From the NCBI RefSeq assembly GCF_001187535.1, contig NZ_LFIO01000020.1, positions 1-64,000 of the forward strand: a stretch of 64,000 nucleotides of DNA, read 5' to 3'. The DNA comes from Rhizobium ecuadorense (GTDB taxonomy: Bacteria > Pseudomonadota > Alphaproteobacteria > Rhizobiales > Rhizobiaceae). The position numbers and the translations under genes were made by a program. Shown here in pieces: positions 42,172 to 58,831 of the stretch. A model generated the notes under the pieces. That model made no database searches and was not told where the DNA came from. It was given only the letters and a program-made list of their open reading frames with translations. Each line of letters starts with the position of its first letter. Position 1 is the stretch's first letter.

Positions 42172-42450
42172 TTACTTGTTCAGCGCATCCTTCAGCGCCT
42201 TGGCTGGCGTAAAAGCTAGCTTCTTGGCGGCGGCAACCTTAATGGTCGCACCGGTCGCAGGGTTGCGTGCCTCACGCTCCGGTGTCGCCTTCACCTTGAA
42301 CTTGCCGAAGCCAGGCAGCGACGTCTCGTTGCCGGCAACCGCAGCCTCGGTAATGGAGGCGATCACCGCCTCGACGATGGCTTTGCCCTGCACTTTGGTC
42401 AGGCCGTGCTCGCCTGCAATCTTGTCGGCAATTTCGTTGGTCGTGGTCAT
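42172..42450 (-). CDS. HU-family DNA-binding protein
   Basis: The 92-residue protein (MTTTNEIADKIAGEHGLTKV) has the HU/IHF fold signatures: helices QGKAIVEAVIASITEAAVAG, the beta-arm SLPGFGKFKVKATPEREARN then PATGATIKVAAAKKLAFTP, and the last helix AKALKDALNK. HU bends and protects DNA; plasmid copies often support transfer or silence genes. It is the only minus-strand gene between 29.5 and 43.2 kb. Confidence 0.95.
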   Translation of the reverse strand: MTTTNEIADKIAGEHGLTKVQGKAIVEAVIASITEAAVAGNETSLPGFGKFKVKATPEREARNPATGATIKVAAAKKLAFTPAKALKDALNK

Positions 42451-42848
42451 TTTCGTCTCCGCATCGTTTCAGATGCAGAATCCCTGCCATTACCGACCCG
42501 AGCTGTCATCGACACGCTGCGGCAAATGCGCGGAAAGCCCCGGATCTCCACAGTTATTCACTGATCACCTGTTAGTAACCCGAAGACGGGCATCGAGCCC
42601 GTCCTCGCGTTCGGGTGCGATACGGAGAGGAGAATGTCTGCTCAGTCCGTCCGAAGATGCCATGGCGCCATGCCGGCCTCAAGGACGAGCGGTACCCCCA
42701 ATTTTGCCTCCGCTCCGGTTCCCTGCGCTCCGACAAAATCGGCACCCCCACTCGCCGCCGCTGGCGGTCGCGTTCCGCGATCCCTGACCCCGCCACGCCC
42801 CCATGACCGCGCGCGTCGTCTTTCACAAACGTCAAGGAGACGACGACG
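42451..42848. other. Leader region with repeated hairpin element, copy 1
   Basis: 398 bp between the divergent HU gene and the 54-residue ORF. It contains a 12-bp palindrome CATGGCGCCATG (42661-42672) and the first copy of a hairpin element at 42676-42791. Confidence 0.6.
42676..42791 (+). repeat. Leader hairpin repeat, copy 1
   Basis: ATTTTG (42701-42706) pairs with CAAAAT (42734-42739). Then follows a 37-bp core (42755-42791) identical to 43886-43922, which itself contains two mini-hairpins (CCGCC-gct-GGCGG and TCGCG-ttc-CGCGA). It precedes the small ORF at 42849. Confidence 0.8.
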
Positions 42849-43213: not shown

Positions 43214-43489
43214 CTATCGATTACCCGCTGTATCTTGCCGGATATGCGGTTTCGGCCTGTATCCGCGCGACCGTCTCCTTCGCAGAAGCTGAAGGAACAG
43301 CCTGACCGCCTCTTCCTCCCGCGCGAAATGATGCTCTCGCCTTTGGCCGGTGGCGCCGATGCGACCCCATCGGCGGATGAGACAGGCCTCGCCGAACAAG
43401 TTGGGCTCGATTGACATGGCATAGTAGCGGGCCATGTTTTTTTCGGCGTCGATGCGTTCGACATATAGCTGGTAGCGTTGCGCAATCAT
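43214..43489 (-). CDS. WGR-domain protein
   Basis: From ATG 43489 (MIAQRYQLYVERIDAEKNMA) the 91-residue protein is a single WGR domain: RYYAMSIEPNLFGEACLIRR followed by WGRIGATGQRREHHFARE and a basic C-terminus. WGR domains occur in PARP enzymes and in short stand-alone rhizobial plasmid proteins and probably bind nucleic acid. The longer open frame to 43561 adds only low-quality sequence. Confidence 0.88.
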   Translation of the reverse strand: MIAQRYQLYVERIDAEKNMARYYAMSIEPNLFGEACLIRRWGRIGATGQRREHHFAREEEAVRLFLQLLRRRRSRGYRPKPHIRQDTAGNR

Positions 43490-43974
43490 GACACGGAGAA
43501 TCGGGCAAGGCGGACTCGGCGTCCAATGACATATTTGAATCGGTCGGCTCGACTGATTCATGCTGGTGATGGGTTATCCCCGGATGATCCGGGCGAGCCG
43601 CCTGTGGCGGACGGTGCTATTCGCCGTCGCTCACGGAGCCCGCAAGCGGTCTCCGCCCGTTCGGGTTACGCCCCTCTCGCGGCTTCCGCATCGGCGACAA
43701 CGGCCGAGGATAGCGTGCATAGCCGGCTGAACGCCGGATACGGACACGGCGCCTGGGGCGCCGTGGTCTATCTCTCTCTGACGTCCCATTGTGCACCCGC
43801 CACTCCGGCGTCAAGGACTGCGCGGCCCCTCCAATTTTCAGCCGTCGGCTGTCGGCCGGCGTCAGAAAATCGGTTCCTCCGCTTACCGCCGCTGGCGGTC
43901 GCGTTCCGCGATCCCTGACCCCTCGCGGCTACGGTGCGGCCTCCTTTCGTCAGAGACAGAAAGGAGACAATACG
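43490..43974. other. Leader region with repeated hairpin element, copy 2
   Basis: 485 bp between the divergent WGR gene and the orphan gene at 43975. It holds copy 2 of the hairpin element (43807-43922). Open frames in it overlap the repeat and have no family signature. Confidence 0.6.
43807..43922 (+). repeat. Leader hairpin repeat, copy 2
   Basis: Same layout as 42676-42791: ATTTTC (43834-43839) pairs with GAAAAT (43865-43870), followed by the identical 37-bp core at 43886-43922. It ends 53 bp before the next ATG. Confidence 0.8.
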
Positions 43975-44460
43975 ATGTCCGATGACTGGTACTACACCCA
44001 TCAACTCGCGGCGCTTTCAGGTTTCAAGCTCGTGGTCCTTGCGAACCGGATCGGCTGCGCCGAGGAATTCTCGCGGATGCTGCACGACAGCTTGGCAGAC
44101 GGCCTTGAACACGCAATTCGACAGATACGATCCATCCTGGCGCTGGAGCGCGAGCTCGTATGGAAACCGGATCCCGAAGGCCTCGCCGCGTTCCTACTTC
44201 AAGGGGAACAAGAGTGCCTCGACAGATTCCGGATCATACTTCTCGACGAACTTGAAATTGACTACTTCACCTATGAGTACCGTATCGACAACGGCGATTG
44301 GCATTCGGCGCTGTCGGCGGACTGCGACGGCATCCAGATCTGCTATCCCTGCACCATCGACATGACCGACGCAGAGCTGGGCGGGCTCGGTCCAATCATC
44401 CGCGATATCTCCCGCGAGACTGGCATCGGCATCAGCGCCGCCCGTGTCGTCTACGATTGA
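43975..44460 (+). CDS. Orphan plasmid protein
   Basis: The 161-residue protein (MSDDWYYTHQLAALSGFKLV; strong AAGGAG box) is acidic and soluble, with helical N-terminal half (ADGLEHAIRQIRSILALERE) and a C-terminal half that may be beta-rich (IDYFTYEYRIDNGDWHSALS; DGIQICYPCTIDMTDAELGG). I do not recognise it. An upstream in-frame extension to 43789 runs into the hairpin repeat and was rejected. It is the last gene of the plus-strand block before the structured non-coding region. Confidence 0.75.
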   Translation: MSDDWYYTHQLAALSGFKLVVLANRIGCAEEFSRMLHDSLADGLEHAIRQIRSILALERELVWKPDPEGLAAFLLQGEQECLDRFRIILLDELEIDYFTYEYRIDNGDWHSALSADCDGIQICYPCTIDMTDAELGGLGPIIRDISRETGIGISAARVVYD

Positions 44461-44467
44461 TGCTCGG

Positions 44468-44499
44468 CGAGAGACGGCTTGGCCGTCTCTCGCGATTTT
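44468..44499 (+). terminator. Terminator after the 43975 gene
   Basis: CGAGAGACGG (44468-44477) pairs with CCGTCTCTCG (44483-44492), followed by CGATTTTC. Confidence 0.7.
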
Positions 44500-44542
44500 C
44501 CGTTCTCTTGACCGCTTGCCGGTATCGAGCCTGCGCGCGATC

Positions 44543-44575
44543 TTGAGGGGAGAGACTTGCCGCCTCTCCCCTCAA
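44543..44575. repeat. 12-bp inverted repeat
   Basis: TTGAGGGGAGAG (44543-44554) and CTCTCCCCTCAA (44564-44575), perfect, 9-nt loop. It is followed by GCGGGTC-GA-GACCCGC (44595-44610) and CCGGCC/GGCCGG (44611-44627). Confidence 0.85.
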
Positions 44576-44662
44576 ACACCCCTCTCCAAGCGGTGCGGGT
44601 CGAGACCCGCCCGGCCTTTCGGGCCGGTAGACGGACGCTGCCGCGACTTCCTCAAACAAGAC

Positions 44663-44730
44663 GGAGGAGAGGATCACCGTGAGCTTCGCCCTCATGCTTC
44701 GGGCATCCGCTCCCGGTGATCCTCTCCTCC
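44663..44730. repeat. 17-bp perfect inverted repeat
   Basis: GGAGGAGAGGATCACCG (44663-44679) and its exact inverse (44714-44730) enclose a 34-nt loop. Confidence 0.9.
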
Positions 44731-44826
44731 TGCGGTGCGCTCGCCGTCTCATCGTTCGCATGCCATCGATGCCCGCTCCCTTCGGTCACGGACATCCCGG
44801 CAGCTCACGACGACGGCTCGCTTCAG

Positions 44827-44972
44827 CATCTCTCACCAAATCGGCCCGGCCACCGCGCTGTTCCTCCGGCGCGGATCACAGGCGTGCGCCTGTGATCGCT
44901 GTTGCTTTGTCTGACGACTCGCAACAGCATGGCGCCTCGGGCACGGCGTCCAGGCCGATTTGGTGAGAGATG
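44827..44972. repeat. 20-bp perfect inverted repeats enclosing two smaller hairpins
   Basis: The 20-bp arms lie at 44827-44846 and 44953-44972 (core CACCAAATCGGCC / GGCCGATTTGGTG). Inside are GATCACAGGCG-TG-CGCCTGTGATC (44874-44897) and GCTGTTGC / GCAACAGC (44898-44905 and 44921-44928). Together they form a three-way branched fold. Confidence 0.9.
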
Positions 44973-44980
44973 GCAGGATA

Positions 44981-45002
44981 GGCTATTGGTATACCAATAG
45001 CC
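44981..45002. repeat. 22-bp perfect palindrome
   Basis: GGCTATTGGTA/TACCAATAGCC is an uninterrupted perfect palindrome 8 bp past the 20-bp inverted repeat. Confidence 0.9.
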
Positions 45003-45177
45003 GTTTCGCCCGAGGGGCGATTGTCGCCAGGGCGAGCCGGCGACGGAGGCGTCGCCCGTTTCCCGTCGATCCAGAGACGAACAGCACAGCGAAGAGGCGC
45101 CGGGCCCACGGGGGAAGGTTGGGGGCAGGCGACCACTGGGTGTTGACCGCCGGATGCGATCGGGAACAACAGATTTT

Positions 45178-45575
45178 CGGCGAATAGGTGAATGCGCGAG
45201 TGAGCGAATAGGCGAAATGCCGATCCGCCGAACGAGCAATTGGCTGGTTGGGTAGATCGGCAGTGACAGGGGTCTGGAGCGCATCGGTCTTTGAGAGAAT
45301 AAGCCAAGCGGTCAATCAGCGCATGCGTGAATCAGCGAATAGGTGTTTGCGCAAATTGGCGCATAGGTGCCACGCCGATCCGCCGAATGACCAATTAGGT
45401 GATTGGGTACATCGGGGTATGAGCGAACGGGCGTTTAAGCGTATCGGCTAATGAGTGAATGCGCGGTTCGGCGACTGAGTGCGACCGAGATTCAGCGAGT
45501 AGGTGATTGTGCGCGAATGAGCGAATGGGGAATCGCCGATCTGCCGGATGGTTTTTTAGGCAATTGGCATCGGGC
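45178..45575. repeat. Degenerate ~155-bp tandem repeat array
   Basis: Three related blocks of about 85 bp start at 45178, 45331 and 45491. Each opens with a GCGAATAGGTG-like motif, has CCGATCCGCCGAA-like sequence in the middle and ends with ATTGGnnnATCGG. The spacers between blocks are also alike (GCGCATCGGTC against GCGTATCGGCT), so the full unit is about 155 bp. Short GCGAATAGG/GCGAATGAG motifs recur within units. Confidence 0.75.
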
Positions 45576-45703
45576 GATGAAATGTACCCAGGTCCCGCCA
45601 GCGAACGCACCTTTCACGAGTTCTGAGGGCGGATTTACTGCACGGCGCATTTCAGCAACGCGTCGGGGTTCAGACTTATGAAACCTCTACCGGTTGCAAA
45701 TAA

Positions 45704-47163: not shown

Positions 47164-47182
47164 TTCATGAACTGGTTTGGCC

Positions 47183-48331
47183 ATGTTTCTCACCCCGCTT
47201 TCTCCCCTCCAGAGACCGCAAACGGAATGGTCGCGACACGTTTTTTGGCCTGCACTTACATCTGTTCTTCTCCTGACCTCTTTCACCGCCAGTACCGGGA
47301 AAGGCGGTCAGTTTATCGTAGCCGCGCAACCGCCTCAGCGGGGCGATCGGCTGCGTTCTGTTGACGACTTTAGATCAGGCTTCGCGGCAACCCAGCCGAG
47401 TTTGGCTGCCGTGGCCGCGACGACCACGGAGAGCGCAGCCTCGTCGCCGGCAATCAATTGGACCAATTTCTCACAGCGGATCGGTGTACCCGACACTGCC
47501 GATAAGATGACGGCCAGCCTGTCTCCACTGGGGACAAATGTGGTCGAAACGATGGAAAGCAGCCTTGACGCGCGAGGCACGGCCCCGAGGGGAGGTGCCG
47601 GAGCCAAACCAGGCGTATATTCGTTGATCAGCGTTTTTTCCGCTGATGATCAGCCGGTGATCGCGGCCGTCAACCAGGCAGGTGAGCCTCGCAAGAGCAG
47701 CGCGACGGCCGGAGCGCGAGCAGACCTCATCTCCCAAATGCCCCAGGAGTATACCGCGCTTGCCATAAAGATCGCCGTCGAAGAGGGCGTCGATCCGAAC
47801 TGGGTGCTGTCGATCATGCGAGCCGAGAATGGCGATTTCGATCCCGAACTGGTCAGTGCCGCTGGCGCCATCGGCCTGATGCAGGTCATGCCGAAGATTG
47901 GGAAGGCTTTCGGCGCTGCCGACCTTACGGATCCCGAGCAGAATATCCGTGCCGGTACCCGCTTCCTGCGCCTCCTCATCGATAAATATCGCAATCCGGT
48001 TCTCGTCGCCTCCGCCTATAATGCCGGCGAACCCCGCGTCGACGCGCGTCATTCCTTGCCTCTGATTCAGGAGACTGCCGACTATGTGACGCGGGTCGTT
48101 GGCTACTACACGGGTGCATCGTCACCTTCATCAGCTTCAAGCACTGCCAACGCAACTCCGTCCGCCCCGGCCCCTGGTCGTCCTATAGGTCGCGCTGATC
48201 GGGCTAGATCCCCAATGCTTGTCTTTTCCATTTCAGGCACGCCCGTAGCGGCAAGCCGGAGCCAAGAGGAGGCCGCTGAAATCCCACTCGGCGGCCCGGT
48301 AAAAATCGTCAAGGAAGAGGTGCACCCATGA
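47183..48331 (+). CDS. virB1: T4SS lytic transglycosylase, VirB1-like
   Basis: From ATG 47183 (MFLTPLSPLQRPQTEWSRHV) the 382-residue protein has a hydrophobic signal anchor (WPALTSVLLLTSFTAS), a long variable region, and an SLT domain at about 190-315: EYTALAIKIAVEEGVDPNWV, LSIMRAENGDFDP with the catalytic glutamate near 214, GAIGLMQVMPKIGKAFG, VLVASAYNAGEPRVDARHS. It opens local gaps in peptidoglycan for the secretion channel. It is the first gene of the operon and its stop overlaps the virB2 start. A TTG at 47177 would add two residues. Confidence 0.9.
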   Translation: MFLTPLSPLQRPQTEWSRHVFWPALTSVLLLTSFTASTGKGGQFIVAAQPPQRGDRLRSVDDFRSGFAATQPSLAAVAATTTESAASSPAINWTNFSQRIGVPDTADKMTASLSPLGTNVVETMESSLDARGTAPRGGAGAKPGVYSLISVFSADDQPVIAAVNQAGEPRKSSATAGARADLISQMPQEYTALAIKIAVEEGVDPNWVLSIMRAENGDFDPELVSAAGAIGLMQVMPKIGKAFGAADLTDPEQNIRAGTRFLRLLIDKYRNPVLVASAYNAGEPRVDARHSLPLIQETADYVTRVVGYYTGASSPSSASSTANATPSAPAPGRPIGRADRARSPMLVFSISGTPVAASRSQEEAAEIPLGGPVKIVKEEVHP

Positions 48332-48699
48332 ATCGTTCCGAATTTGCAATCCAGGTCCTCGTCGTCTACGGGCGCGCGGTCTGGTACTCGCTGATGAGAC
48401 AGAAATGGATCGGCAATGCCGCAATCATCGTCACCGCCAGCCTGATCATTCTCATCAGTCAGTTTGAGCCAGCCGCAGCGCAAAATCTCGACGCATTGCA
48501 GAACGCCGCCGATCGGCTGGTACAGTTTTTCACTGGACCCTTCGGTCGCTCGGTCGGCGCGATCGCCTTCATCGGAATGTTTCTGGCGGCGGCCTTCGGA
48601 TACTGGTCCTGGGGAGCGCTGCTCCGCGTCGGAGGAAGCCTTGCCGGCATGTTTGCCGCCGCCGAACTCGTTGATTTCCTGGCTGGCGGCGGATCCTGA
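48328..48699 (+). CDS. virB2: VirB2-like pilin
   Basis: The 123-residue protein has a long positively charged leader with a hydrophobic segment (GNAAIIVTASLIILISQFEP) ending in an AAAQ signal-peptidase site near residue 52. The mature pilin follows with two hydrophobic helices (SVGAIAFIGMFLAAAFGYWS; LLRVGGSLAGMFAAAELVDF). This is the TrbC/VirB2 layout, the major T-pilus subunit. ATGA overlap with the transglycosylase; virB3 starts 2 nt after its stop. Confidence 0.9.
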   Translation: MNRSEFAIQVLVVYGRAVWYSLMRQKWIGNAAIIVTASLIILISQFEPAAAQNLDALQNAADRLVQFFTGPFGRSVGAIAFIGMFLAAAFGYWSWGALLRVGGSLAGMFAAAELVDFLAGGGS

Positions 48700-48701
48700 T
48701 C

Positions 48702-49028
48702 ATGGCCGGGCCTACAAGCACTGCCGACGGTGGCGACGATTATATCGAGTGCTATCCCGTCATTCTCGCGCTCACGCGGCCGCCGACCGTGATGGGCATA
48801 CCATACACCTATTTTCTAGCGGAATGCTTTGTCTCGCTGATGGTGTTCATGATCTTGGGCTCGATCCTCTGGTTCCCGGTCTCCTTCGTCGTTCTGCACA
48901 CCGTCCTCTATGTGCTCACAGTCAAGCTCGACCTCTGGTTCTTCGACATCGTCGGGAGGCTCAGCCTGTGCGGCATCAACCCGCTCGGCCGTCGGCTCGG
49001 CGGCGGCATCCGAACCTACGGAGCTTGA
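48702..49028 (+). CDS. virB3: VirB3-like inner-membrane protein
   Basis: A 108-residue membrane protein with the VirB3 pattern: cytoplasmic start, the conserved YPVILALTRPPTVMGIPYTY, two hydrophobic helices (CFVSLMVFMILGSILWFPVS; VLHTVLYVLTVKLDLWFFDI) and a GGGIRTYGA tail. VirB3 helps VirB4 assemble the inner-membrane complex. The order virB2-virB3-virB4 with 2-3 nt gaps is canonical. Confidence 0.92.
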   Translation: MAGPTSTADGGDDYIECYPVILALTRPPTVMGIPYTYFLAECFVSLMVFMILGSILWFPVSFVVLHTVLYVLTVKLDLWFFDIVGRLSLCGINPLGRRLGGGIRTYGA

Positions 49029-49031
49029 CCC

Positions 49032-51551
49032 ATGAGCACGATGGCAAGATCGCTGAAAGGAACCTTGTCGAAGGGATGGGAGATATTTGCCGACCGCAGT
49101 ATATCGACCCATGTGCCGTTCTACGTGCCGATTGAAAATGGTATCATTCGACTGAAGAACGATTGCCTGGTCTCGACCATAAAGCTGACCGGCTTCTCAT
49201 TTGAGACAGCTGATATCGAGACGATCAACATGCTGCAGCGCCAGCGCAATTCGGCCTTTCGAGCGATTTCGTCCATCGGCAATTTCGCGCTCTATACCCA
49301 CGTCATCAGGCGCAAGGTTGCGCCATCGCTTCCCTCCGGTTTCTCCGACCCCTTCATGCGGCGTCTCGACGACGTCTATCAATCGAGCATCTCCAAGAAC
49401 GAAATGTTCGTCAACGACACCTACGTGTCGCTGGTCGTCCGGCCATTGTTCAAGAAGGGATCGGCGCTGTCCCGGATCATGGGCGTCGGCGGCAATGTCG
49501 TGCGCAGGGAGCAGTTTCGCGCGATGCGCGATAAATTGGTCGAGGCGACGCGCGCACTTGAGAAGTCCCTTGCTGTCTATGGTCCCAAGGTTCTGCGCGA
49601 TATGCAACGCGTCGAAGCCGATCTAGGGAACGGAAGGAAGATCCATCGCGACATCTCCGAAGACATGGTGGTCGAGGAGGGCATGCGGAAGATCTGGTTC
49701 TCGGAACAGTGTGAATTCTTCTACACGCTCCTGAACGGTGGGCGCGTCCGACCGATCCGGCTTGGCAATATCCCGATCGACCAAATGCTTCCCGCACGTC
49801 GAACGTCGATCGGCAACCGGGTCATCCATTTGCAGGGCGATACGCAGGACGATGATCGATATGCCGCGATTGTATCGCTGAAGGAGTACCCGCCTGAGAC
49901 CGGGGCCGGCATGCTCGACTATGTTCTCAAGCTGCCATTCGAGATCGTGCTAACCCAGTCGATGTCATTCATCGACGACATGGCGGCGCGCAGCCGGATC
50001 GAGAGGCTCGACCGGCAGATGTCGAAAGCCGACGAGGGTGGTTCTAGCGTCCAGGCCAATCTCGACATTGCCCGTGACGAACTGGCTCGCAAGCGCGTCG
50101 CCTTCACCGAGCACCATCTCACCGTCATGCCCGTCGCCAAGTCGACGGCCCAGCTGGACGACGCGGTGGCCCTTATCGGCAATGAATTGGGAGCGCTCGG
50201 CGCCTCCTACGTTCGCGAAGACCTGAATGCCGAGCCGGCCTATTGGGCGCAGCTTCCCGGCAACCAGGCGTACATTGCCCGCCGAGCCTTGATCTCGACC
50301 CTTAATTGCGCGGGTTTAAGCAGCTTCCACGCCTATCCCTATGGCAAGCCGGACGGTAACCATTGGGGGCCGGCGATCACCATTTTTGAGACGACGTCTG
50401 GCACACCCTTCTTCTTCAATTTCCATCAGGGCGATGTCGGGCACACCACTGTCTTCGGCCCAACCGGATCGGGCAAGACCGTGATCATGGCTTTTCTGAT
50501 CCTGCAAGCCTACAGGGTCAGCCCGCGCCTGAAGACGATCGTCTTCGACAAGGACCGCGGCCTCGACATCATGGTACGCGCTGCAGGCGGCACCTACATC
50601 GCGCTGGAGCCCGGAGAACCGTCCGGCTGGAATCCGCTCCTTCTCGATGACACCGAAGAGAACCGGGTTTTTCTATACGGCCTTCTGAGCTTTATGTTGA
50701 AGCCCTCGAAGGAAGGAGAGAACCTGACGCCGCAGGAAGAGGCGATTATTCGCAACGCCATCAAGTCGGTCCTGAAGACGAAGGACAGGTCCTATCGCCG
50801 TCTGTCGTCGCTACGTGCTCTTCTTGCCGGCAGCGAGAGAACCGAGGGGAGCCTGATCGCGAGGCTCGATAAATGGGTCGGTCATGGCCCCTATGCGTGG
50901 CTCTTCGACAACGCCGATGACAATCTCGACATTTCCAGGCCGATGATCGGCTTCGACATGACGTCGATCCTTGACGATCCCACGGTGCGCACAGCAGCGC
51001 TTCTGTACATGTTTCATCGGCTCGACGCGATCTATGACGGCAAGGCGCCGATCATCAACCTGATGGACGAAGCCTGGAAGCTGCTCGATGACGACGAGTT
51101 CAAGCGCACGATGAAAGACTATTTCAAGACCATTCGTAAACGGAACGGTCTGGTGATCTTTGGCACGCAGTCCGCCGACGACGTGGTTCAATCGAGCGTC
51201 AGCCGGACGATCATCGAGCAGACGTCGACCAACATTTTTTTCGCCAATCCGAAGGCCGACGAGAACTCCTACATGGAGCATTTCGGGCTCTCCAGGGCCG
51301 AATTTGACTGGGTCAAGAACGGCGACCCAAGTTCGCGCTTCATGCTGATCAAGCAAGCCAAGAGCAGCGTCATCGCGCGCGTCGACATGTCCCACATGCC
51401 GGAATTCATCAAGGTGCTCTCTGGGAGGGAAGAGACCGTGCGCGAAGTCGAGCTGCTGCTCGACGAATACGGCGACGATCCGAAAGGCTGGCTTTCGAAG
51501 TTCTGCAACTGGGAGGGAGGCGCGTCCGATGAAGACCGCAAGGCTTTCTGA
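49032..51551 (+). CDS. virB4: VirB4-like T4SS ATPase
   Basis: The 839-residue ATPase has the CagE/TrbE/VirB N-terminal domain (ISTHVPFYVPIENGIIRLKN; RQRNSAFRAISSIGNFALYT) and a C-terminal motor: FGPTGSGKTVIMAF (Walker A near 475), FDKDRGLDIMVRAAGGTYI, PIINLMDEAWKLL (Walker B near 679), and the RNGLVIFGTQSADDVVQ arginine-finger region. It energises pilus assembly and substrate transfer at the inner membrane. The length is normal. Its last 23 nt overlap the next gene. Confidence 0.97.
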   Translation: MSTMARSLKGTLSKGWEIFADRSISTHVPFYVPIENGIIRLKNDCLVSTIKLTGFSFETADIETINMLQRQRNSAFRAISSIGNFALYTHVIRRKVAPSLPSGFSDPFMRRLDDVYQSSISKNEMFVNDTYVSLVVRPLFKKGSALSRIMGVGGNVVRREQFRAMRDKLVEATRALEKSLAVYGPKVLRDMQRVEADLGNGRKIHRDISEDMVVEEGMRKIWFSEQCEFFYTLLNGGRVRPIRLGNIPIDQMLPARRTSIGNRVIHLQGDTQDDDRYAAIVSLKEYPPETGAGMLDYVLKLPFEIVLTQSMSFIDDMAARSRIERLDRQMSKADEGGSSVQANLDIARDELARKRVAFTEHHLTVMPVAKSTAQLDDAVALIGNELGALGASYVREDLNAEPAYWAQLPGNQAYIARRALISTLNCAGLSSFHAYPYGKPDGNHWGPAITIFETTSGTPFFFNFHQGDVGHTTVFGPTGSGKTVIMAFLILQAYRVSPRLKTIVFDKDRGLDIMVRAAGGTYIALEPGEPSGWNPLLLDDTEENRVFLYGLLSFMLKPSKEGENLTPQEEAIIRNAIKSVLKTKDRSYRRLSSLRALLAGSERTEGSLIARLDKWVGHGPYAWLFDNADDNLDISRPMIGFDMTSILDDPTVRTAALLYMFHRLDAIYDGKAPIINLMDEAWKLLDDDEFKRTMKDYFKTIRKRNGLVIFGTQSADDVVQSSVSRTIIEQTSTNIFFANPKADENSYMEHFGLSRAEFDWVKNGDPSSRFMLIKQAKSSVIARVDMSHMPEFIKVLSGREETVREVELLLDEYGDDPKGWLSKFCNWEGGASDEDRKAF

Positions 51552-52701
51552 GCTGGCGACCGTCAGCCTCCTGGTGCTCGCCGCTGTGACGACCCCGACC
51601 GCCTACGCACAGGTGCCCGTCATAGACAACGCTCGTCTGAAGATCCAGCAGGAGACGTTGAACTGGTACAAGAGCTATGAGGCGGACACTCAAGGGGTAA
51701 AGGGCGCCACGGGCGGAACGACCGACAGCGTAGCACCCGGCCAAGGCTCGGGCGCACCGGCCGATTGTTCGGCGGAAGGTATGGCAGGAAACACAGCGCC
51801 CGCCGCACCATCGAAGCGGACCCCGAGCCAACAGGAGGTCGCTCGCATGGTCGAGGACGAGGCGCTCCGCCAGGGCGTCGATCCAAACTTTGCCATGGCG
51901 ATTGCCGAACAGGAATCGCGCTTCCGGCAATCCGCGCGTTCCGCCGTTGGCGCGACCGGCGTCATGCAGTTAATGCCGGGAACCGCGGCAGGTCTTGGCG
52001 TCAATCCCTATGACACGCGCGACAACATTCGCGGTGGCATCAAATACATCAAGCAACTCCAAGGGATGTTCGGCAATCGCTACGACCTGATTGCCGCCGG
52101 CTATAATGCAGGGCCGTATCGCCAGTCGCTGCAGAATGGACAGATCCCAAACATTCCCGAGACGCAGGACTACGTCAAAAAGGTTTCGGCCTATTACAGC
52201 CGCAACAAGGCGCAGAATGGCGACCGTACTCCTCCATCCGGCACTGAAGCCGAGCCGGAAACTGTCAGCGATAGCACGGGTTGCGGCGAACAGTTGAAGA
52301 AGGCCGTCGATCGCAACACAGAGGCACAGATCGAGCGCGGGAACGTGTGGAACGCGTTTGTCGAGAAGTCGACGGAAGCGAGCCAGCAATATTTGCAGCG
52401 TCTTCAGGCCGGGTTGCAATCGTCATCGGCGAACCTGCGCGGCGCTGCCGGCGGCAATGCGAAGGATCACGACGGTTCGCTTGTCATGGCGCAGATCCAA
52501 TGCCCGACGACGATCGCCGATACCGGCAGCACCCGCTGCTTCGCCGTGCCGTCGACGGCGACGACCGAACAGATCCAGGGCTGGCTTGAGGACCTGCAGG
52601 AACAGGCGCGCGTCAACGGCGACGTCGCGACCTTCTCGGTTATGCAGGATCCAGCACTGGGTCTGGTGACGGTCGTCGACGCCAGACCGACAGCAAACTG
52701 A
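51529..52701 (+). CDS. Second lytic transglycosylase of the virB operon
   Basis: The 390-residue protein has a signal peptide (MKTARLSELATVSLLVLAAV; cleavage after TAYA) and a central SLT domain at about 105-220: EDEALRQGVDPNFAMAIAEQ, ESRFRQSARSAVGATGVMQL, MPGTAAGLGVNPYDTRDNIR, YDLIAAGYNAGPYRQSLQNG. After it comes an extra C-terminal domain of 170 residues, partly coiled coil (FVEKSTEASQQYLQRLQAGL), of unknown role. It lies between virB4 and virB5, overlapping virB4. A second transglycosylase in the same operon is unusual; the C-terminal extension may anchor or regulate it. Confidence 0.88.
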   Translation: MKTARLSELATVSLLVLAAVTTPTAYAQVPVIDNARLKIQQETLNWYKSYEADTQGVKGATGGTTDSVAPGQGSGAPADCSAEGMAGNTAPAAPSKRTPSQQEVARMVEDEALRQGVDPNFAMAIAEQESRFRQSARSAVGATGVMQLMPGTAAGLGVNPYDTRDNIRGGIKYIKQLQGMFGNRYDLIAAGYNAGPYRQSLQNGQIPNIPETQDYVKKVSAYYSRNKAQNGDRTPPSGTEAEPETVSDSTGCGEQLKKAVDRNTEAQIERGNVWNAFVEKSTEASQQYLQRLQAGLQSSSANLRGAAGGNAKDHDGSLVMAQIQCPTTIADTGSTRCFAVPSTATTEQIQGWLEDLQEQARVNGDVATFSVMQDPALGLVTVVDARPTAN

Positions 52702-52723
52702 ACGAGCAAGAGAGGTTAGGCAC

Positions 52724-53515
52724 ATGAAGACATTCATTATCGCGGCGGCTCTTGGCATCATCGCCGCCTCGCACGCTTACGCGCAGGTGCCGGTCAAGGA
52801 TGCAGAGAACATATCTCTGAGCGAGGAGATCAAGCGGCTATCGTCGCAGATCCAGCAGGACACGTCAGTCGTCAAGGACAATACGACGAAGACGCTGCAG
52901 GCGATCACCGGCGATCGCACCCAGGATGCTAGCCAGTTTGCCAAGCTTGCGACTGGCAATGGTTTCAGCATGGGGCAGGCGCCGGATTTCAACAGCATCT
53001 TGTCCGGCAATCAAGCTGTGTTCGGCGGTATCGGCGGCCAGTTCCAGAATACGGCCGCCAAGCTGATCAATGGCTTGAATCTGGTGAAGATGATCGCCGA
53101 CACGGTCAAGGGGGGCGAGCTCTCCGGTGCCAACCAGGCTTATTCGCAAGGCATAAACGCCCTGACGACCATGACGGCGCTCACCGACGCGATGAATAGC
53201 GCCACCAAGGATAGACAGAACTCCTTCATGCAGGCGACACAGCAGGTCGGCACCGCGCAGGATCTGAAGGGAGCGCTGGAGCAGAACACCCAGATGGTGC
53301 TGCAGGGCAACCAGACCGCCAACGAGGCCGTCGGCTCGCTCAACAATCAGGTCATGCTGTTGAACCAACAATACAAGGCCGCGCTCGCGACGTCGTCTCA
53401 GAACCTCAAGACGTTCGCGACGCTCCCCGACAGCGTCATGCGTGATGACGGTGCCGGTCAGCAAGGCGTCTCCGTGCGGGATCAACTGAAGGCGTTCGAG
53501 GAGCAGTCACAGTGA
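52724..53515 (+). CDS. virB5: VirB5-like minor pilin / P-type T4SS protein
   Basis: A 263-residue secreted protein: signal peptide MKTFIIAAALGIIAASHAYA, then QVPVKDAENISLSEEIKRLS and a long alpha-helical body (KTLQAITGDRTQDASQFAKL; NGLNLVKMIADTVKGGELSG; NGQ-rich C-terminal helices). The TrbJ/VirB5 family puts this protein at the pilus tip. Its stop overlaps the GTG start of the small lipoprotein gene. Motifs in this family are weak; the call rests on helix pattern and operon position. Confidence 0.82.
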   Translation: MKTFIIAAALGIIAASHAYAQVPVKDAENISLSEEIKRLSSQIQQDTSVVKDNTTKTLQAITGDRTQDASQFAKLATGNGFSMGQAPDFNSILSGNQAVFGGIGGQFQNTAAKLINGLNLVKMIADTVKGGELSGANQAYSQGINALTTMTALTDAMNSATKDRQNSFMQATQQVGTAQDLKGALEQNTQMVLQGNQTANEAVGSLNNQVMLLNQQYKAALATSSQNLKTFATLPDSVMRDDGAGQQGVSVRDQLKAFEEQSQ

Positions 53516-53721
53516 GGCCGATCCTCGTCCTTGTCCTCGGCTGCGTGGCGCTTTCCGGCTGCGCCGGCAAACAAGAACAACTGGCGAAGTGCTCCGCCGA
53601 CGAGAACCCGATGCCAGCACTCGGCTTTGATAAGGAGCAGAAGCCTGGACCCGCTGAACAGGCATTGGCGGCAGCCGTCGTGAACGATTGCGGTCCCATG
53701 CGACCCGTCAATCAATTCTAG
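53512..53721 (+). CDS. Small lipoprotein, VirB7/entry-exclusion-like
   Basis: This 69-residue protein starts with GTG at 53512 inside the virB5 stop (GTGA). A short signal peptide with lipobox (MRPILVLVLGCVALSGCAGK, C17) is followed by a small polar domain with two more cysteines. Position between virB5 and virB6 is where VirB7-like or Eex lipoproteins are found. VirB7 stabilises VirB9 in the outer-membrane core; Eex blocks redundant transfer. The sequence alone cannot separate them. Confidence 0.75.
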   Translation: MRPILVLVLGCVALSGCAGKQEQLAKCSADENPMPALGFDKEQKPGPAEQALAAAVVNDCGPMRPVNQF

Positions 53722-53742
53722 AAGCCACTTACAGGATGCGAC

Positions 53743-54816
53743 ATGGATCCGGTCAGCTACGCGATCAATTTCTATGGCGATGCCTTGCGTTACTTCGACA
53801 AGGTCAACGAAGCGTCGCTGGAACGAGCCTGGGGTCTGTTTGCCGAAAACGGTAATCTCGTCTCCGGGATCCTGGCGCTCTTCCTCATCCTGTATTTTCT
53901 CTGGGGCGCGCTCGGGTTTTCCAGCGTATCGTTGCAGGACATGGCCGTCACGGCGTTCAAACTGGCGTTGGCCTATGCCCTGATCATGTCCTGGGCCACA
54001 TTCTACGACAATATCGGCCAGTTCGTGCTGTCGACGCCACAGGATCTCGGCTCAGCGATTTCCTCGGCAATGGGCGGGCAGTCTGCGGGCTCGGATCTCG
54101 CCAGCCAAGTCGCGTCGATGGCGCGCAAAGTCTACGACTTCGCCATGCAGCTCTTCAATTCCTACGAGTCCGGCTGGCTGCCGAACGTCACCGGCGCTGT
54201 CGTCGTCTTCATCGTGCTGGTCTTCGGCCTACTGCCTATGCTCTTGATCCTCACTGGCGTGACGCTGTTTGCCAAGATGATCACCGCGGTGATGCTGGCG
54301 ATCGGGCCGATCGCCATCCTCTGCTATTTCTTCGGCATCACGCGCTTCGTCTTCGACGCCTGGGTAAGGGGCGTCGCCTACGGCATGTTCATGCTTCTGT
54401 TCACCTACATCATGGCCGGGCTGTCGTTCGGCTTTCTGATCGGCATGATGGACACCATCAACGGTGACATGGCGACCAAGGAGAATGCGCTCGCGATCGT
54501 GCTCGCCATGGTTCTGTACCTGGCACTGATCTCCTACTTCATTTTTCAGGTTCCTGATTTTGCCCGCACCTTCGCTTACGGCGCTGCCATATCCGGGGTG
54601 CCGGGCGGGGGCGGCGTCGACGCGGCATATGGATCGGCACGGAGGGGACTGTCGGCCAGCAATTCGAGAGCCGGGCAGGCCGCAGCGGTTGCTCTTGGCA
54701 TGTTGGCAGGCCCCAGAGGCGCGGTAGCCGCAGCGGCGCTCGCCGGCAGCAGTAGCTTGGCAGGTGCGGGCGCACTCGGCCGCATGCTGACCAATCGGCG
54801 CCGCAACGGCGAATGA
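53743..54816 (+). CDS. virB6: VirB6-like polytopic channel protein
   Basis: The 357-residue protein (MDPVSYAINFYGDALRYFDK) has at least five membrane segments: VSGILALFLILYFLWGALGF, MAVTAFKLALAYALIMSWAT, VTGAVVVFIVLVFGLLPMLL, ILTGVTLFAKMITAVMLAIG, YGMFMLLFTYIMAGLSFGFL and IVLAMVLYLALISYFIF. This fits the TrbL/VirB6 family forming part of the inner-membrane channel. The C-terminal tail is glycine/alanine-rich. It shares ATGA with virB8. Confidence 0.92.
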   Translation: MDPVSYAINFYGDALRYFDKVNEASLERAWGLFAENGNLVSGILALFLILYFLWGALGFSSVSLQDMAVTAFKLALAYALIMSWATFYDNIGQFVLSTPQDLGSAISSAMGGQSAGSDLASQVASMARKVYDFAMQLFNSYESGWLPNVTGAVVVFIVLVFGLLPMLLILTGVTLFAKMITAVMLAIGPIAILCYFFGITRFVFDAWVRGVAYGMFMLLFTYIMAGLSFGFLIGMMDTINGDMATKENALAIVLAMVLYLALISYFIFQVPDFARTFAYGAAISGVPGGGGVDAAYGSARRGLSASNSRAGQAAAVALGMLAGPRGAVAAAALAGSSSLAGAGALGRMLTNRRRNGE

Positions 54817-55610
54817 CGATACGGCGACAGAGATGTTTCCACGATTTAGGCGCCCACGAATTTGAGGTTCGAAAATTGGCATTGTTCAAAAAGCAATTGA
54901 GGGCCGCCCCGGCCGATCATGTCCCCGGTCCGCAGCATATCTACGATCAGCATTTGTCTTGGGGAGAAAAGAACCGCTCGCTCAGGACCTTGATTGGTCT
55001 CATCCTGTTGGCCTTCGCCGTTGCCGGCTGGGTCGTCGCCGGCGTGCTTTCTTTTTCGGTGGCCCAGCTTTTCCCCCTTGTCCGCACCGAGGTCGTTCCT
55101 CTCATCGTCGACAAGAACACGGGATACATGGAAACCGTGACGTCGCTTGACAAAGATCGGTCGAGCGTCTCGGAAATGCAGGCCGTTCGGGCCTCCTTCG
55201 TCGGCAATTACGTCATTCGGCGGGAGACCTACGATCCGCGCTATCTGTCGGACAATTTCGACATGATCGCGCTTTGGTCGGAGCCGAACTCGGAAGCTTT
55301 TAAGGATTACGAGGAGTGGATGAACCCATCCAACCCACGAGGGCCTGTGAAAACCATGGGCGCGACCGGTGACATCCGTCCTGACATACTCTCGGTCAAT
55401 CCGCTCAATGCCTCGACCATGGCCGTCCGGTTTGAGACACGGGAGCGCCAACGTGGCGGTGACGTCGTTAATCGGTGGTCTGCAACGGTACGCTTTCGCC
55501 AGATCAATCTGCCGGCCAGCAACCGGGTTCGGCTTTACAATCCGCTCGGCTTTGTCGTTACCGAATATGTGAAGGTCCCGGAGACTATGCCGTCGGGGCT
55601 CGCCCCATGA
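54813..55610 (+). CDS. virB8: VirB8-like inner-membrane assembly protein
   Basis: The protein has one membrane helix (TLIGLILLAFAVAGWVVAGV) and a periplasmic NTF2-like domain (VPLIVDKNTGYMETVTSLDK; SFVGNYVIRRETYDPRYLSD; NASTMAVRFETRERQRGGDV; RFRQINLPASNRVRLYNPLG). VirB8 nucleates the T4SS core. The listed ATG overlaps virB6 (265 residues). An in-frame TTG at 54876 with a GAGG box would start ALFKKQLRAAP, closer to typical VirB8 N-termini, giving 244 residues; I cannot decide between them. Its stop overlaps virB9. Confidence 0.92.
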   Translation: MTIRRQRCFHDLGAHEFEVRKLALFKKQLRAAPADHVPGPQHIYDQHLSWGEKNRSLRTLIGLILLAFAVAGWVVAGVLSFSVAQLFPLVRTEVVPLIVDKNTGYMETVTSLDKDRSSVSEMQAVRASFVGNYVIRRETYDPRYLSDNFDMIALWSEPNSEAFKDYEEWMNPSNPRGPVKTMGATGDIRPDILSVNPLNASTMAVRFETRERQRGGDVVNRWSATVRFRQINLPASNRVRLYNPLGFVVTEYVKVPETMPSGLAP

Positions 55611-56440
55611 AGAGATGCGCCGCCGCATTTTCCCTCGTTCTGCTGCTGAGTCCAGCAGCCGTTCATGGCGAGCTCCTGGCACGGCCGGGCCGGCTTGACC
55701 CGCGCGTCCGGTCACTTCCGTATTCCGCCGAGCAGGTATTTCTCGTCACCGGCACCTATGGGCTGGTCACAACCATTCTCTTCGGTACTGACGAGGAAAT
55801 CACACAGGTCGTCGCGGGCGACACCGTCTCCTGGCAGATCCTCACCTCGGCCGACAGGCGTTCGTTGACATTGAAGCCGATGGAGAAGGACGCGGCGACC
55901 AATCTGTCGGTTGTGACCACGAAGCGAACCTATTCTTTCGATCTGCGCGTCAACGATAGCAAGGCGATGCAGAACCAGACCTTCAAGCTGACATTCACGT
56001 ATCCGGAAGATGCCGGCTTGAAAGGAACTGCCGAGCTCTGGAAGCAGGCTCAGGATGCCGAGCGCAATCCGAACATCAACAACATTCGTCGCGACAAGGT
56101 CAATTACGACTATGGCTTCAAAGGCAACGATGCCGCCAAGCCCCTGTGGGTCTTCGACGATGGGGTGAAGACCTTCATGAAGTTCACCGGCGACATCCCG
56201 GCGATCTTCATTGTCGACCCCAAGCGGAGCGAGAGCCTCGTGAACTATCGTCGGGAGGCCGATTACATCGTCATCGACAAGGTCTCGCGGCAGTGGTCCC
56301 TGCGCTTTGGGACGGAGGAGGAGACCTGCCTGTTCAATCTCCGGACTTCTCCCGCCGACACCCCGGCGCCCATCGAAGGCGCAGTCGCTCCGAAGCGGAT
56401 CGGAGCCGAAGCCGCCAACCAGCAACCCCAATCACGGTAG
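55607..56440 (+). CDS. virB9: VirB9-like outer-membrane core protein
   Basis: From ATG 55607 (ATGA overlap with virB8) the 277-residue protein has a signal peptide (MKRCAAAFSLVLLLSPAAVH) and the VirB9/CagX domain: RVRSLPYSAEQVFLVTGTYG, LVTTILFGTDEEITQVVAGD, RSLTLKPMEKDAATNLSVVT, KRTYSFDLRVND, then NYDYGFKGNDAAKPLWVFDD, AIFIVDPKRSESLVNYRREA and IVIDKVSRQWSLRFG. It binds VirB7 and VirB10 in the outer-membrane core complex. Confidence 0.95.
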   Translation: MKRCAAAFSLVLLLSPAAVHGELLARPGRLDPRVRSLPYSAEQVFLVTGTYGLVTTILFGTDEEITQVVAGDTVSWQILTSADRRSLTLKPMEKDAATNLSVVTTKRTYSFDLRVNDSKAMQNQTFKLTFTYPEDAGLKGTAELWKQAQDAERNPNINNIRRDKVNYDYGFKGNDAAKPLWVFDDGVKTFMKFTGDIPAIFIVDPKRSESLVNYRREADYIVIDKVSRQWSLRFGTEEETCLFNLRTSPADTPAPIEGAVAPKRIGAEAANQQPQSR

Positions 56441-56450
56441 GAGGTGCGCC

Positions 56451-57785
56451 ATGTCCGATCCCAGCTACCACTCGATCGACAACGATACCGCCATCGGCGG
56501 ACAGGTCAGACGTTCTGGCACCGGCATGATGCGGCCGATCGCGGTCGTTGCGGCGATCGCGGGCGTGGGCGCGGTCCTGTATTTCCTCCTGGCGAGCGGA
56601 GAGAGGGAGCCGGCGATCGACACGTCGCCGCGCGAAGAGTTTCGCCCGGCGCAGGTGCCGCGCAATGAAGGCTTCAGGACACCAGCGCCTCCGCCGTTGC
56701 CAACGGTCGTAGTCCCAGAGGCTCCGCCGCCGCCACCTCCGCCACCGCCCGCACCTGTCGTTCCCGCCACTGCTCCTGTAGCACCCCCGGCGGAAGTCGA
56801 TTGCACGCGAGGCAAGAACCCTGACAACCCGCGCTGTATCGAACTCGCGCGGGAGGCAAAGCTTCTGGAGCGCGTACGTTCGTCGGCCATGGTCTTCGAC
56901 CAATCAAACAGGACGACCGGTGCGGCCCAAGCGTCCCCCGATAGCGCGAGTGCCGGACCGTTTGGGTCAGGGGTTGGATCGGGGGCGCAGCCGAGCGCGG
57001 CGACGGATGGCAATGCGGCCGATAGTGACCGCGCGTTCTTAAAGGCGATGAGCGGGCAAGGCGTCGAAGTCTCTGTCGCCTCCGAGAACCGCCGCACCGA
57101 CGCCTGGATCCCCCAGGGCACGATGATCCGGGGAACGCTCGAGACAGCGATCAATTCCGATCTGGCCGGCATGGTCAAAGGGATTGTCCGCGAAGACGTC
57201 TATTCCTTTGACGGCCGTCGAATCCTTATCCCGGCCGGTTCCTCGCTGATCGGCGACTACAAGTCCGGGGTCGAACGGGGGCAGGAGCGTATCCTGATCG
57301 TCTGGACCCGCATGATCCGCGGGGACGGTGTCTCGGTGCAGCTTGGCTCCTACGGCACAGACCGGCTTGGCCGCTCGGGCATGACGGGTGTCGTCGACCG
57401 GAAATATTGGGAACGGTTCGGACCGCCGGCTCTGATGACGCTGATCGGCGGCGCCACGCAATATATCGCCCAGCTTGGTCAGAAGCCCGACCGGAATATC
57501 ACCATCGTCAACGACAGTGGCAGCGTCACCAGCATCCCTCAGGACAATGGCGACACGTCACAGGATCGCGCCCGGCAAATCGCCGCCGAGACCATCGCTT
57601 CCGGCATTCAACAGCTTGGCACGGAAGCCTTCCAGGATAGCCGCAACATCCGGCCGACCATCCACATCCCGCAGGGTTCCGACATCAACGTCTTCGTCAC
57701 ACGCGACCTCGACTTCGCAGACCTTTATCCTGATCCGGTTCGCGAGCGGTTCGAGAGCTTGCGCAAGCAGAGGTACGGCGAATGA
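56451..57785 (+). CDS. virB10: VirB10-like energy-coupling core protein
   Basis: The 444-residue protein has a short cytoplasmic start, one membrane helix (PIAVVAAIAGVGAVLYFLLA), a proline-rich periplasmic spacer (a run of eight to nine prolines near 95), and the C-terminal TrbI/VirB10 domain: DAWIPQGTMIRGTLETAINS, DLAGMVKGIVREDVYSFDGR, RILIPAGSSLIGDYKSGVER, GQERILIVWTRMIRGDGVSV, and NVFVTRDLDFADLYPDPV. It spans both membranes and transmits ATP-driven signals. It starts 10 nt after virB9 and overlaps virB11 by ATGA. Confidence 0.96.
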   Translation: MSDPSYHSIDNDTAIGGQVRRSGTGMMRPIAVVAAIAGVGAVLYFLLASGEREPAIDTSPREEFRPAQVPRNEGFRTPAPPPLPTVVVPEAPPPPPPPPPAPVVPATAPVAPPAEVDCTRGKNPDNPRCIELAREAKLLERVRSSAMVFDQSNRTTGAAQASPDSASAGPFGSGVGSGAQPSAATDGNAADSDRAFLKAMSGQGVEVSVASENRRTDAWIPQGTMIRGTLETAINSDLAGMVKGIVREDVYSFDGRRILIPAGSSLIGDYKSGVERGQERILIVWTRMIRGDGVSVQLGSYGTDRLGRSGMTGVVDRKYWERFGPPALMTLIGGATQYIAQLGQKPDRNITIVNDSGSVTSIPQDNGDTSQDRARQIAAETIASGIQQLGTEAFQDSRNIRPTIHIPQGSDINVFVTRDLDFADLYPDPVRERFESLRKQRYGE

Positions 57786-58831
57786 ACGCACGCCCTGCAA
57801 TCTCCGCGGAACGGCATTTTCTGGCCGAGGCGCTGGAACCCATCCGGGCCTTTCTCGACGATCCTGCCGTCGTCGAGATTTCCTGCCAGCGCAGCAACGA
57901 GATCTGGCTCGAGAAGATCGGCCAGCTCAGCATGGTCAGCCAACAGGTCGACGGCCTGGACCAGGACGCAATCCGCCACATGGCGTCTCGCGCGGCGTCT
58001 TTTACCAAGCAGACCGTCAACGCTGAGAACCCGCTGTTGTCGGCGACACTGACGGGCGGCGAGCGCGTGCAGTTCGTCCTCAGTCCGACGTCGGCGACGG
58101 GGCATGCCTTCTCGATCCGTAAGCAGTTCATTCGTCGCTTTGACCTGGACGACTACGAAAAGGCTGGCGCGTTTCGCTTCACTAAGGTCACTGGCGATGA
58201 CTATATCGATGACGTGGATATCGAGCTTTCAACGCTGCTCCGCGCCGGCAAGATTCGCGCTTTCCTGGAACTCGCGGCCGTCAATCACCGCAGTATGCTG
58301 ATTTCCGGTGGGACATCCACCGGCAAGACGACGTTTCTCAACACTATGCTGACTTCCATTCCAAACCAGGAACGCTTCATCCTGATGCAGGATACGGAGG
58401 AACTCGAACCGCGACAGGAAAATGTCGTGTCGCTGCTGGTCTCGAAGGGAGGCCAAGGGGAGGCCAGGGTCACCATGACTGATCTGCTGGCCACGGCGCT
58501 GCGGCTCAGGCCGGACAGGATCTTCATGGGCGAGCTGCGCGGCGACGAGGCTTTTGATTTCCTGAACGCGATCAACACCGGCCATCCCGGATCGATGTCG
58601 ACCATCCATGCGAACTCGCCGCACCATGCGTTCAACCGCCTGTCGACGCTGGTGCTCAACAGCAATGTCCGCATGGAGCGCGACGATATCATTCGATATA
58701 TCCGTTCGATCATCCCGATCGTGGTGCAGTTGAAGAAGAGCGATGCCGCCGGCGGCCGCGGCGTCAGCGAGATCTACTTTGCCGATGAGGTGGACAAAGA
58801 TGGCAAGCGTATTCACGTCAGCGGAGACTGA
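57782..58831 (+). CDS. virB11: VirB11-like hexameric ATPase
   Basis: A 349-residue traffic ATPase with an N-terminal domain (LAEALEPIRAFLDDPAVVEI; ERVQFVLSPTSATGHAFSIR) and the motor domain: MLISGGTSTGKTTFLNTML (Walker A near 175), QDTEELEPRQENVVSLLV (Asp box), RPDRIFMGELRGDEAFDFL (Walker B) and NTGHPGSMSTIHANSP (His box). It switches the VirB4/VirD4 engine between pilus building and DNA transfer. Its 3' end overlaps the virD4 start by 32 nt. Confidence 0.97.
   Translation: MNARPAISAERHFLAEALEPIRAFLDDPAVVEISCQRSNEIWLEKIGQLSMVSQQVDGLDQDAIRHMASRAASFTKQTVNAENPLLSATLTGGERVQFVLSPTSATGHAFSIRKQFIRRFDLDDYEKAGAFRFTKVTGDDYIDDVDIELSTLLRAGKIRAFLELAAVNHRSMLISGGTSTGKTTFLNTMLTSIPNQERFILMQDTEELEPRQENVVSLLVSKGGQGEARVTMTDLLATALRLRPDRIFMGELRGDEAFDFLNAINTGHPGSMSTIHANSPHHAFNRLSTLVLNSNVRMERDDIIRYIRSIIPIVVQLKKSDAAGGRGVSEIYFADEVDKDGKRIHVSGD

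Follow-up and report, generated by a model that had tools for sequence, protein, structure and literature searches.

Origins of transfer (oriT) of the MOBP type, as far as the account in PMC3772185 describes them for RP4 and for tfs4 of H. pylori, share a nick consensus, (C/T)ATCCTG(C/T), that adjoins and directly follows an inverted repeat. The hairpin cluster analyzed here is, judged from its sequence, very probably an oriT of this type, with its hairpins placed on the leading side of the transferred strand (T-strand). The likeness lies in a nick consensus directly after an inverted repeat and in a relaxase encoded in the same replicon. The locus differs from MOBP oriT regions in that nic is bordered on its transferred side by another long hairpin with a 500-nt hairpin array beyond it, a tract of 8-nt repeats occupies the other side of nic, and the T4SS cluster stands between oriT and the relaxase operon. 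To our knowledge, RP4 has no second nic-abutting hairpin, hairpin array or octamer tract, and no T4SS between its oriT and relaxase operon.

The T-DNA right border with overdrive, VirC1, VirC2 and VirD2 has the same nick hexamer, and overdrive lies to the right of the right border and is bound by VirC1 (as presented in PMC4285021 and PMC4949242). A ParA-like VirC1 encoded with the relaxase genes and a tract on the overdrive side are further points of likeness. Here, in contrast, a whole plasmid would move between bacteria, and overdrive is matched by hundreds of base pairs of degenerate 8-nt repeats for which protein binding is proposed. The Frpo and ssi elements of F-like leading regions are folded single-stranded DNA in the leading region (described in PMC11541004), a trait shared by the present hairpins, which however lie between the leading genes and nic and point off the end; promoter elements were not found in them. 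The sso1 of ICEBs1, according to PMC4595007, likewise places stem-loops on the strand that a conjugative element transfers, whereas the present structure is larger, abuts nic, and has its loop inverted in some relatives.

The window is the whole stretch of DNA analyzed, 64,000 nucleotides of Rhizobium ecuadorense contig NZ_LFIO01000020.1, and belongs to a plasmid typed as repABC by Rfam matches to ctRNA_p42d and the S-element at 24.2 kb. The cluster is a noncoding stretch. Its left neighbor is a 161-aa gene ending at 44460, and to its right are two small unnamed ORFs followed by a lytic transglycosylase gene at 47177. The features of the locus are as follows.

43975..44460, plus strand: conserved 161-aa gene beside the array, read toward oriT; function without assignment.
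44467-44478/44482-44493, minus strand: outermost hairpin, 12-bp stem, directly after the upstream gene.
44543-44554/44564-44575, minus strand: array hairpin, 12-bp stem.
44595-44610 and 44611-44627, minus strand: two short adjacent hairpins, 6 bp each.
44663-44684/44709-44730, minus strand: long array hairpin, 22 nt, 95% complementary, 17 bp perfect.
44743-44817, minus strand: imperfect array hairpin, 29 pairs; absent from the preliminary description.
44827-44858/44941-44972, minus strand: nic-abutting hairpin, 32 nt, 88% complementary, outer 20 bp perfect.
44874-44897, minus strand: first inner hairpin, enclosed by 44827..44972.
44898-44928, minus strand: second inner hairpin, enclosed by 44827..44972; arms GCTGTTGC/GCAACAGC.
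44973..44980, minus strand: predicted nic region, 5'-TATCCTG/C-3' (TATCCTGC); the slash marks the predicted cut between 44974 and 44973.
44981-45002: palindrome, 22 bp (9-bp stem, loop TATA), immediately 5' of nic on the T-strand; candidate relaxase or relaxosome hairpin.
45006-45020: second core hairpin, CGCCC GAG GGGCG, at the right edge of the conserved element; absent from the preliminary description.
45101..45560: repeat tract on the tra side of nic, built of degenerate octamers (approximately GYGAATNN); candidate binding array for a relaxosome accessory protein.
47177..61511, plus strand: T4SS cluster, lytic transglycosylase to VirD4-like coupling protein; predicted last to transfer.
Contig positions ~68000-71517, after the T4SS and beyond the window: relaxase operon (VirC1-like ParA, two small proteins, relaxase).

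All seven structures that the preliminary description had listed in 44461-45002 are present at their places. They had been called perfect throughout, which holds for the cores of the long stems and fails for their full length. The description had also held that no gene explains the cluster, and this stood: the upstream ORF stops at 44460 and relatives are nearly gene-free there (annotation under the matches in 54 plasmid records: no gene in 50, one gene in 1, unannotated in 3). Its proposal to fold each strand gave energies far better than shuffles on both. As single-stranded DNA, 44461-45025 had z-scores of -14.67 on the minus and -11.43 on the plus strand, and 0 of 100 dinucleotide shuffles per strand folded as well on either. 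The window holds 55 inverted repeats with arms at most 150 nt apart, and among the best 25 listed, ranks 1 and 2 come from the cluster. A 150-nt folding scan of the window against 6 shuffles placed a single one of 1278 window/strand combinations, 44601-44750, beyond the cut-off of -3.5. The hairpin cluster exceeds chance. Terminator-like stems number two (44467-44493 and 44874-44897), which is similar to shuffles (mean 1.5).

In a blastn search of 72,556 plasmid records with a 620-bp stretch, relatives were found in 54, and in 43 of these the match spanned 80% or more of the query; the window's own genome records were possibly left out of this count. Matches were present in 13 of 394 family genomes (the own genome, 5 long, 2 partial, 5 very short); L010-L018 of this family search, being short or duplicate matches, were not used further. 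A core pattern search gave 33 loci in GTDB genomes. Conservation ends sharply at ~45022. Alignment A1 comprised 28 of 34 sequences, with L008, L009, L038, L042, L043 and L044 set aside as divergent, inverted, deleted or altered at the core. Folding was compared in 60 loci after dropping L043 (letters beside nic differ) and nine duplicates; 57 were usable to the right of nic, and three were too short there. The nic-abutting stem was scored in these 60 loci plus L082, giving 61 loci that are related rather than independent. The core had no matching array in L053 and L057. The L053 contig is titled Pseudomonas putida and has core and octamers but no hairpin array.

On the minus strand, the palindrome 44981-45002 is immediately followed by TATCCTGCC, and the nick consensus is matched at 44980-44973. 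With 12 occurrences of YATCCTGY in the window, the motif has no value as proof by itself; its weight comes from its place. An inverted repeat stands directly 5' of nic on the predicted cut strand, as in MOBP-type oriT. The consensus is invariant in the 28-sequence alignment, and the longest invariant run of that alignment, ATGGCAGGATAGGCTA on the plus strand (16 columns), contains it. The palindrome forms 9/9 pairs in 42 of 60 loci and 8/9 in 14 (at least 8/9 in 56/60), and its letters have changed in many loci with pairing kept. The dyad is intact with other letters in pAt8 and Phyllobacterium, where the letters of the latter are largely replaced. At the 45006-45020 hairpin, 229 of 233 cells are Watson-Crick. 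Relaxase recognition was among the functions the preliminary description had suggested for the hairpins; for the 22-bp palindrome this suggestion gains from the adjoining MOBP nick motif and from the co-occurrence of one relaxase family.

The contig encodes one PF03432 relaxase (70414-70686; 34.2 bits against a cut-off of 24.6), which places a MOBP relaxase on the same replicon; the NCBIfam MobP1 match to it was below cut-off. A ParA-like gene and two small genes precede the relaxase gene, whose start lies ~25 kb right of nic; the oriT-relaxase distance is also ~25 kb in several relatives. In pAtCFBP4996b (L082) the ParA/relaxase operon begins 0.7 kb after the core, and in M. terrae the relaxase follows the core after ~2 kb. 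Among the 72,556 plasmid records, relatives of the relaxase were found in 70 and matches to the 61-bp core in 59, some of them weak (e.g., Phyllobacterium, E 0.4). Relaxase copies covering at least 80% of the length (51.7-94.6% identity) occur in 47 records, and 47/47 are among the 59 core records. The core was found in none of the 22 listed among the other 23 relaxase records. Distant relatives (identity no higher than 31.1%) account for 21 of these 22; in the remaining record, A. rubi NZ_CP049208, there is a relaxase fragment (18% of length, 60.8% identity) and no core. Conversely, 12 of the 59 core records lack the relaxase. The 47/47 co-occurrence together with the 0.7-kb spacing in pAtCFBP4996b is strong evidence, at the level of sequence, that the core is the oriT of the co-occurring relaxase. 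One of the 12 core records without the relaxase is a 4,002-bp plasmid of A. tumefaciens (L079, NZ_CP048583.1), annotated with four genes, whose core at 863-900 is accompanied by hairpins of its own; a PF03432 search of it gave no match, and it looks as if it were mobilized in trans. PLSDB classes this plasmid as non-mobilizable.

Because nic is on the minus strand, the T-strand would be the minus strand and would leave leftward. The genes to the left of the core read toward nic (13 of 14 features in the fetched pRLG203 stretch), as do 8 of 9 left-side features in pAtCFBP4996b toward the core, and the entering strand would therefore be their template. Leftward exit would make the hairpins the first 500 nt of the T-strand and the T4SS and relaxase genes the last to transfer. 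The nic-abutting hairpin 44827..44972 corresponds to the first ~146 nt of the predicted T-strand and its fold comprises 31 pairs. The minus strand folds better than the plus strand in 28/28 sequences with RNA parameters and 27/28 with DNA parameters, and relative to shuffles it is the better strand over the left 290 nt in 52 of 60 loci. A wobble test for strand gave no significant difference (single-step departures to G-T in 67 pairs, to A-C in 54; p 0.28), so the strand assignment rests on nic, gene orientation and folding energy. Pfam and NCBIfam searches with the 161-aa gene product (43975..44460) gave no match. HU-like and WGR-domain genes on the minus strand at 42172-42450 and 43214-43561 read away from oriT; WGR is annotated in 16 of 26 fetched relative stretches and HU in 5 of 26, many of which are too short for HU.

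Folding is concentrated on the leading side of nic. Measured against 8 shuffles per locus, the left 290 nt of the T-strand have a median excess folding of -31.9 kcal/mol, with 55 of 60 loci at -10 or lower and no clear excess in L042, L044, L053, L064 and L080. The right 290 nt have a median of -1.2 kcal/mol, and 3 of 57 loci reach -10 or lower (L059, L078, L079). Stems that abut nic score at least 12 in 52 of 61 loci, with a median of 25; none of 157 control positions from the same loci reaches 12, their maximum being 9. The nine loci without a strong stem are L007, L028, L042, L053, L056, L057, L079, L080 and L081. The left arm begins 137-151 nt from nic in 50 of the 52 strong-stem loci. In L008 and L009 the arm letters are unrelated and the stem again abuts nic (179-181 nt). 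Arm letters vary widely between loci, and nic-abutting arms reach 33 bp in relatives.

Drift of the arms without compensatory change would have spoken against a conserved fold, according to the preliminary description. This pattern was looked for and the result does not refute the fold: 58 of 144 pairs have changed on both sides (321 cells). Structures slid by 1-3 positions gave at most 37 pairs and 77 cells, and 200 shuffles at most 42 pairs and 114 cells. Loci entered these counts if 440 or more of the 508 array positions were matched, which left 39 of 60; the structure used is the window's own fold, which favors it over the slid versions. Both-side changes affect 22/31 pairs of hairpin 44827..44972, 15/21 of 44663..44730 and 10/29 of 44743..44817.

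The perfection of the arms could instead be a mutational by-product, with template switching homogenizing the arms and flipping the spacer and the hairpins having no leader function. The loop of the largest hairpin is inverted in L038 and L044, an inverted repeat crosses nic in L075 (by eye), and the wobble test gave no strand preference. Arm homogenization with spacer inversion is the signature of polymerase template switching as set out in PMC8604942. The inverted spacers point to template switching or recombination, so the co-variation is not pure evidence of selection, and template switching probably helps to keep the arms alike. As the whole explanation it is unlikely, because stem position and span are fixed in 50/52 strong-stem loci, the unrelated arms of L008 and L009 abut nic once more, and in almost every locus it is the leading side that carries the structure. 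Selection is best read from the fixed position beside nic and the fixed side.

Several T-strand stem-loops beside an oriT also recall sso1, for which PMC4595007 gives three predicted stem-loops. The array might be above all a single-strand origin, separate from oriT, from which host enzymes (primase or RNA polymerase) begin complementary-strand synthesis in the recipient, and conserved stretches between stems, such as 44634-44667, could be sequence-specific sites. We regard this reading, which takes up the single-strand initiation sites named in the preliminary description, as doubtful. By reasoning from polarity, a primer here would extend toward the 5' end and copy at most ~500 nt before recircularization. 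The activity of sso is reported in PMC4595007 to depend on orientation, yet the large loop is inverted in relatives, and L053 has the core without the array.

A structured RNA, which the preliminary description had named too, would be read leftward from the minus strand; it is very improbable. The minus strand folds best with RNA parameters too, but no Rfam family reached its gathering score in the cluster in searches at two thresholds, and no sigma-70-like promoter was detected; the scan for sites of this type, covering 43400-45600, gave 0 where 0.5 were expected. The fixed right end and position are better explained by the nick motif. The preliminary description had also considered an Frpo-like single-strand promoter, which would serve the leading genes. 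Strong T-strand folding beside such genes is what this idea has in its favor. Its polarity is wrong, however: the leading genes lie to the left and read toward the element, so that T-strand-templated transcription would run off the 5' end at nic. Neither placement upstream of the genes with the T-strand as template nor -35/-10 elements in a stem was found, there was no sigma-70-like promoter match, and the loop is inverted in two relatives, which a directional promoter should not tolerate. The Frpo suggestion was therefore abandoned for the cluster as extremely improbable.

A repeated leader is present at 42666-42791 and 43798-43922 (78.6% identical) and ends ~50-60 nt before two plus-strand leading-region genes. 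In 20 plasmid records taken from a set of 30, it has 47 matches; 41 of them are on the leading side, no more than ~11 kb from oriT, and all on the strand of the leading genes. The second copy (43798-43922) has a match in 475 plasmid records, and the T-strand folds better in 42/42 homologues of this copy. These repeats are better candidates for an Frpo-like promoter than the hairpin cluster.

Sequences to the right of the core align poorly and share a period. The 8-nt signal exceeds 0.2 on the right side in 41 of 57 loci and on the left side in 0 of 57, and none of 3807 windows located 1500 nt or more away attains that level. In the whole 7.38-Mb genome, GYGAATNNGYGAATNNGYGAAT with at most 2 mismatches has 9 matches, 7 of them in the tract; the reversed control has 0. 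Runs of one octamer occur in L035, L074 and L080, and L080 keeps its octamers though its core is cut short. The ParA-like protein of pAtCFBP4996b scores above the cut-off of Pfam VirC1 (PF07015), with general AAA/ParA models scoring higher, and that of the window's plasmid is 83.5% identical to it. One of the small proteins encoded before the relaxase shows weak similarity (E 0.026) to a ribbon-helix-helix antitoxin family, and the other has an uninformative match only. The tract lies on the non-transferred side and a VirC1-like ParA is encoded with the relaxase, as with overdrive and VirC. The most likely role of the octamer tract is to bind, as an array, a small accessory protein whose gene accompanies that of the VirC1-like ParA upstream of the relaxase.

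The reading of the cluster as an oriT is based on sequence, conservation, co-variation and co-occurrence; from these we infer nicking, binding and all roles in transfer. The relaxase would recognize the palindrome 44981-45002 and cut the minus strand between 44974 and 44973. The minus strand would then exit 5' end first and leftward, carrying the hairpin array, then the leading-region genes, and the T4SS and relaxase genes last. The T-strand would have one nucleotide before the ~146-nt hairpin, which would start at nucleotide 2 and be followed by six further hairpins. In single-stranded or extruded DNA the nick would fall within 8 unpaired bases with a hairpin on either side. By exposing and framing nic, the nic-abutting hairpin may serve both cutting and rejoining. 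The T-strand would enter the recipient with its 5' end as a folded leader. The remaining hairpins may keep this leader folded, with less loading of SSB and RecA, or provide a priming site, although priming as the leader's main role is rather unlikely. The leader would act on single-stranded DNA during export or upon arrival, and the octamers would array a small accessory protein in a manner comparable to overdrive. Nick framing and a folded leader as a functional device are proposed tentatively. So too is a new oriT architecture, a possibility we would not yet favor, in which two hairpins frame nic, a dedicated leader is folded, and octamers bound by a VirC2-like protein link the relaxosome to a ParA-type motor.

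This assignment places a likely transfer origin for a family of Rhizobiaceae plasmids that combine a MOBP relaxase with a VirB-type secretion system and are present in dozens of Rhizobium and Agrobacterium replicons. An established oriT also tells in which direction the plasmid is transferred and which region, with which genes, leads. Searches of the open-access literature found no description of a folded T-strand leader with an octamer array, of a rhizobial oriT of such type or of oriT co-variation. If functional, the leader and the octamer array would be two parts of oriT for which that literature yielded no description. NC_022536.1 (L041), presumed here to be the A. pusense IRBG74 symbiosis plasmid, has the core at 122481-122538 and the relaxase at 144742-146760. 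A survey, as summarized in PMC10272884, reported no oriT in the IRBG74 symbiosis plasmid.

In the Mesorhizobium chromosome, at L075, the inverted repeat across nic brings two nic motifs face to face, as seen by eye. This double-nic locus is perhaps an integrated element.
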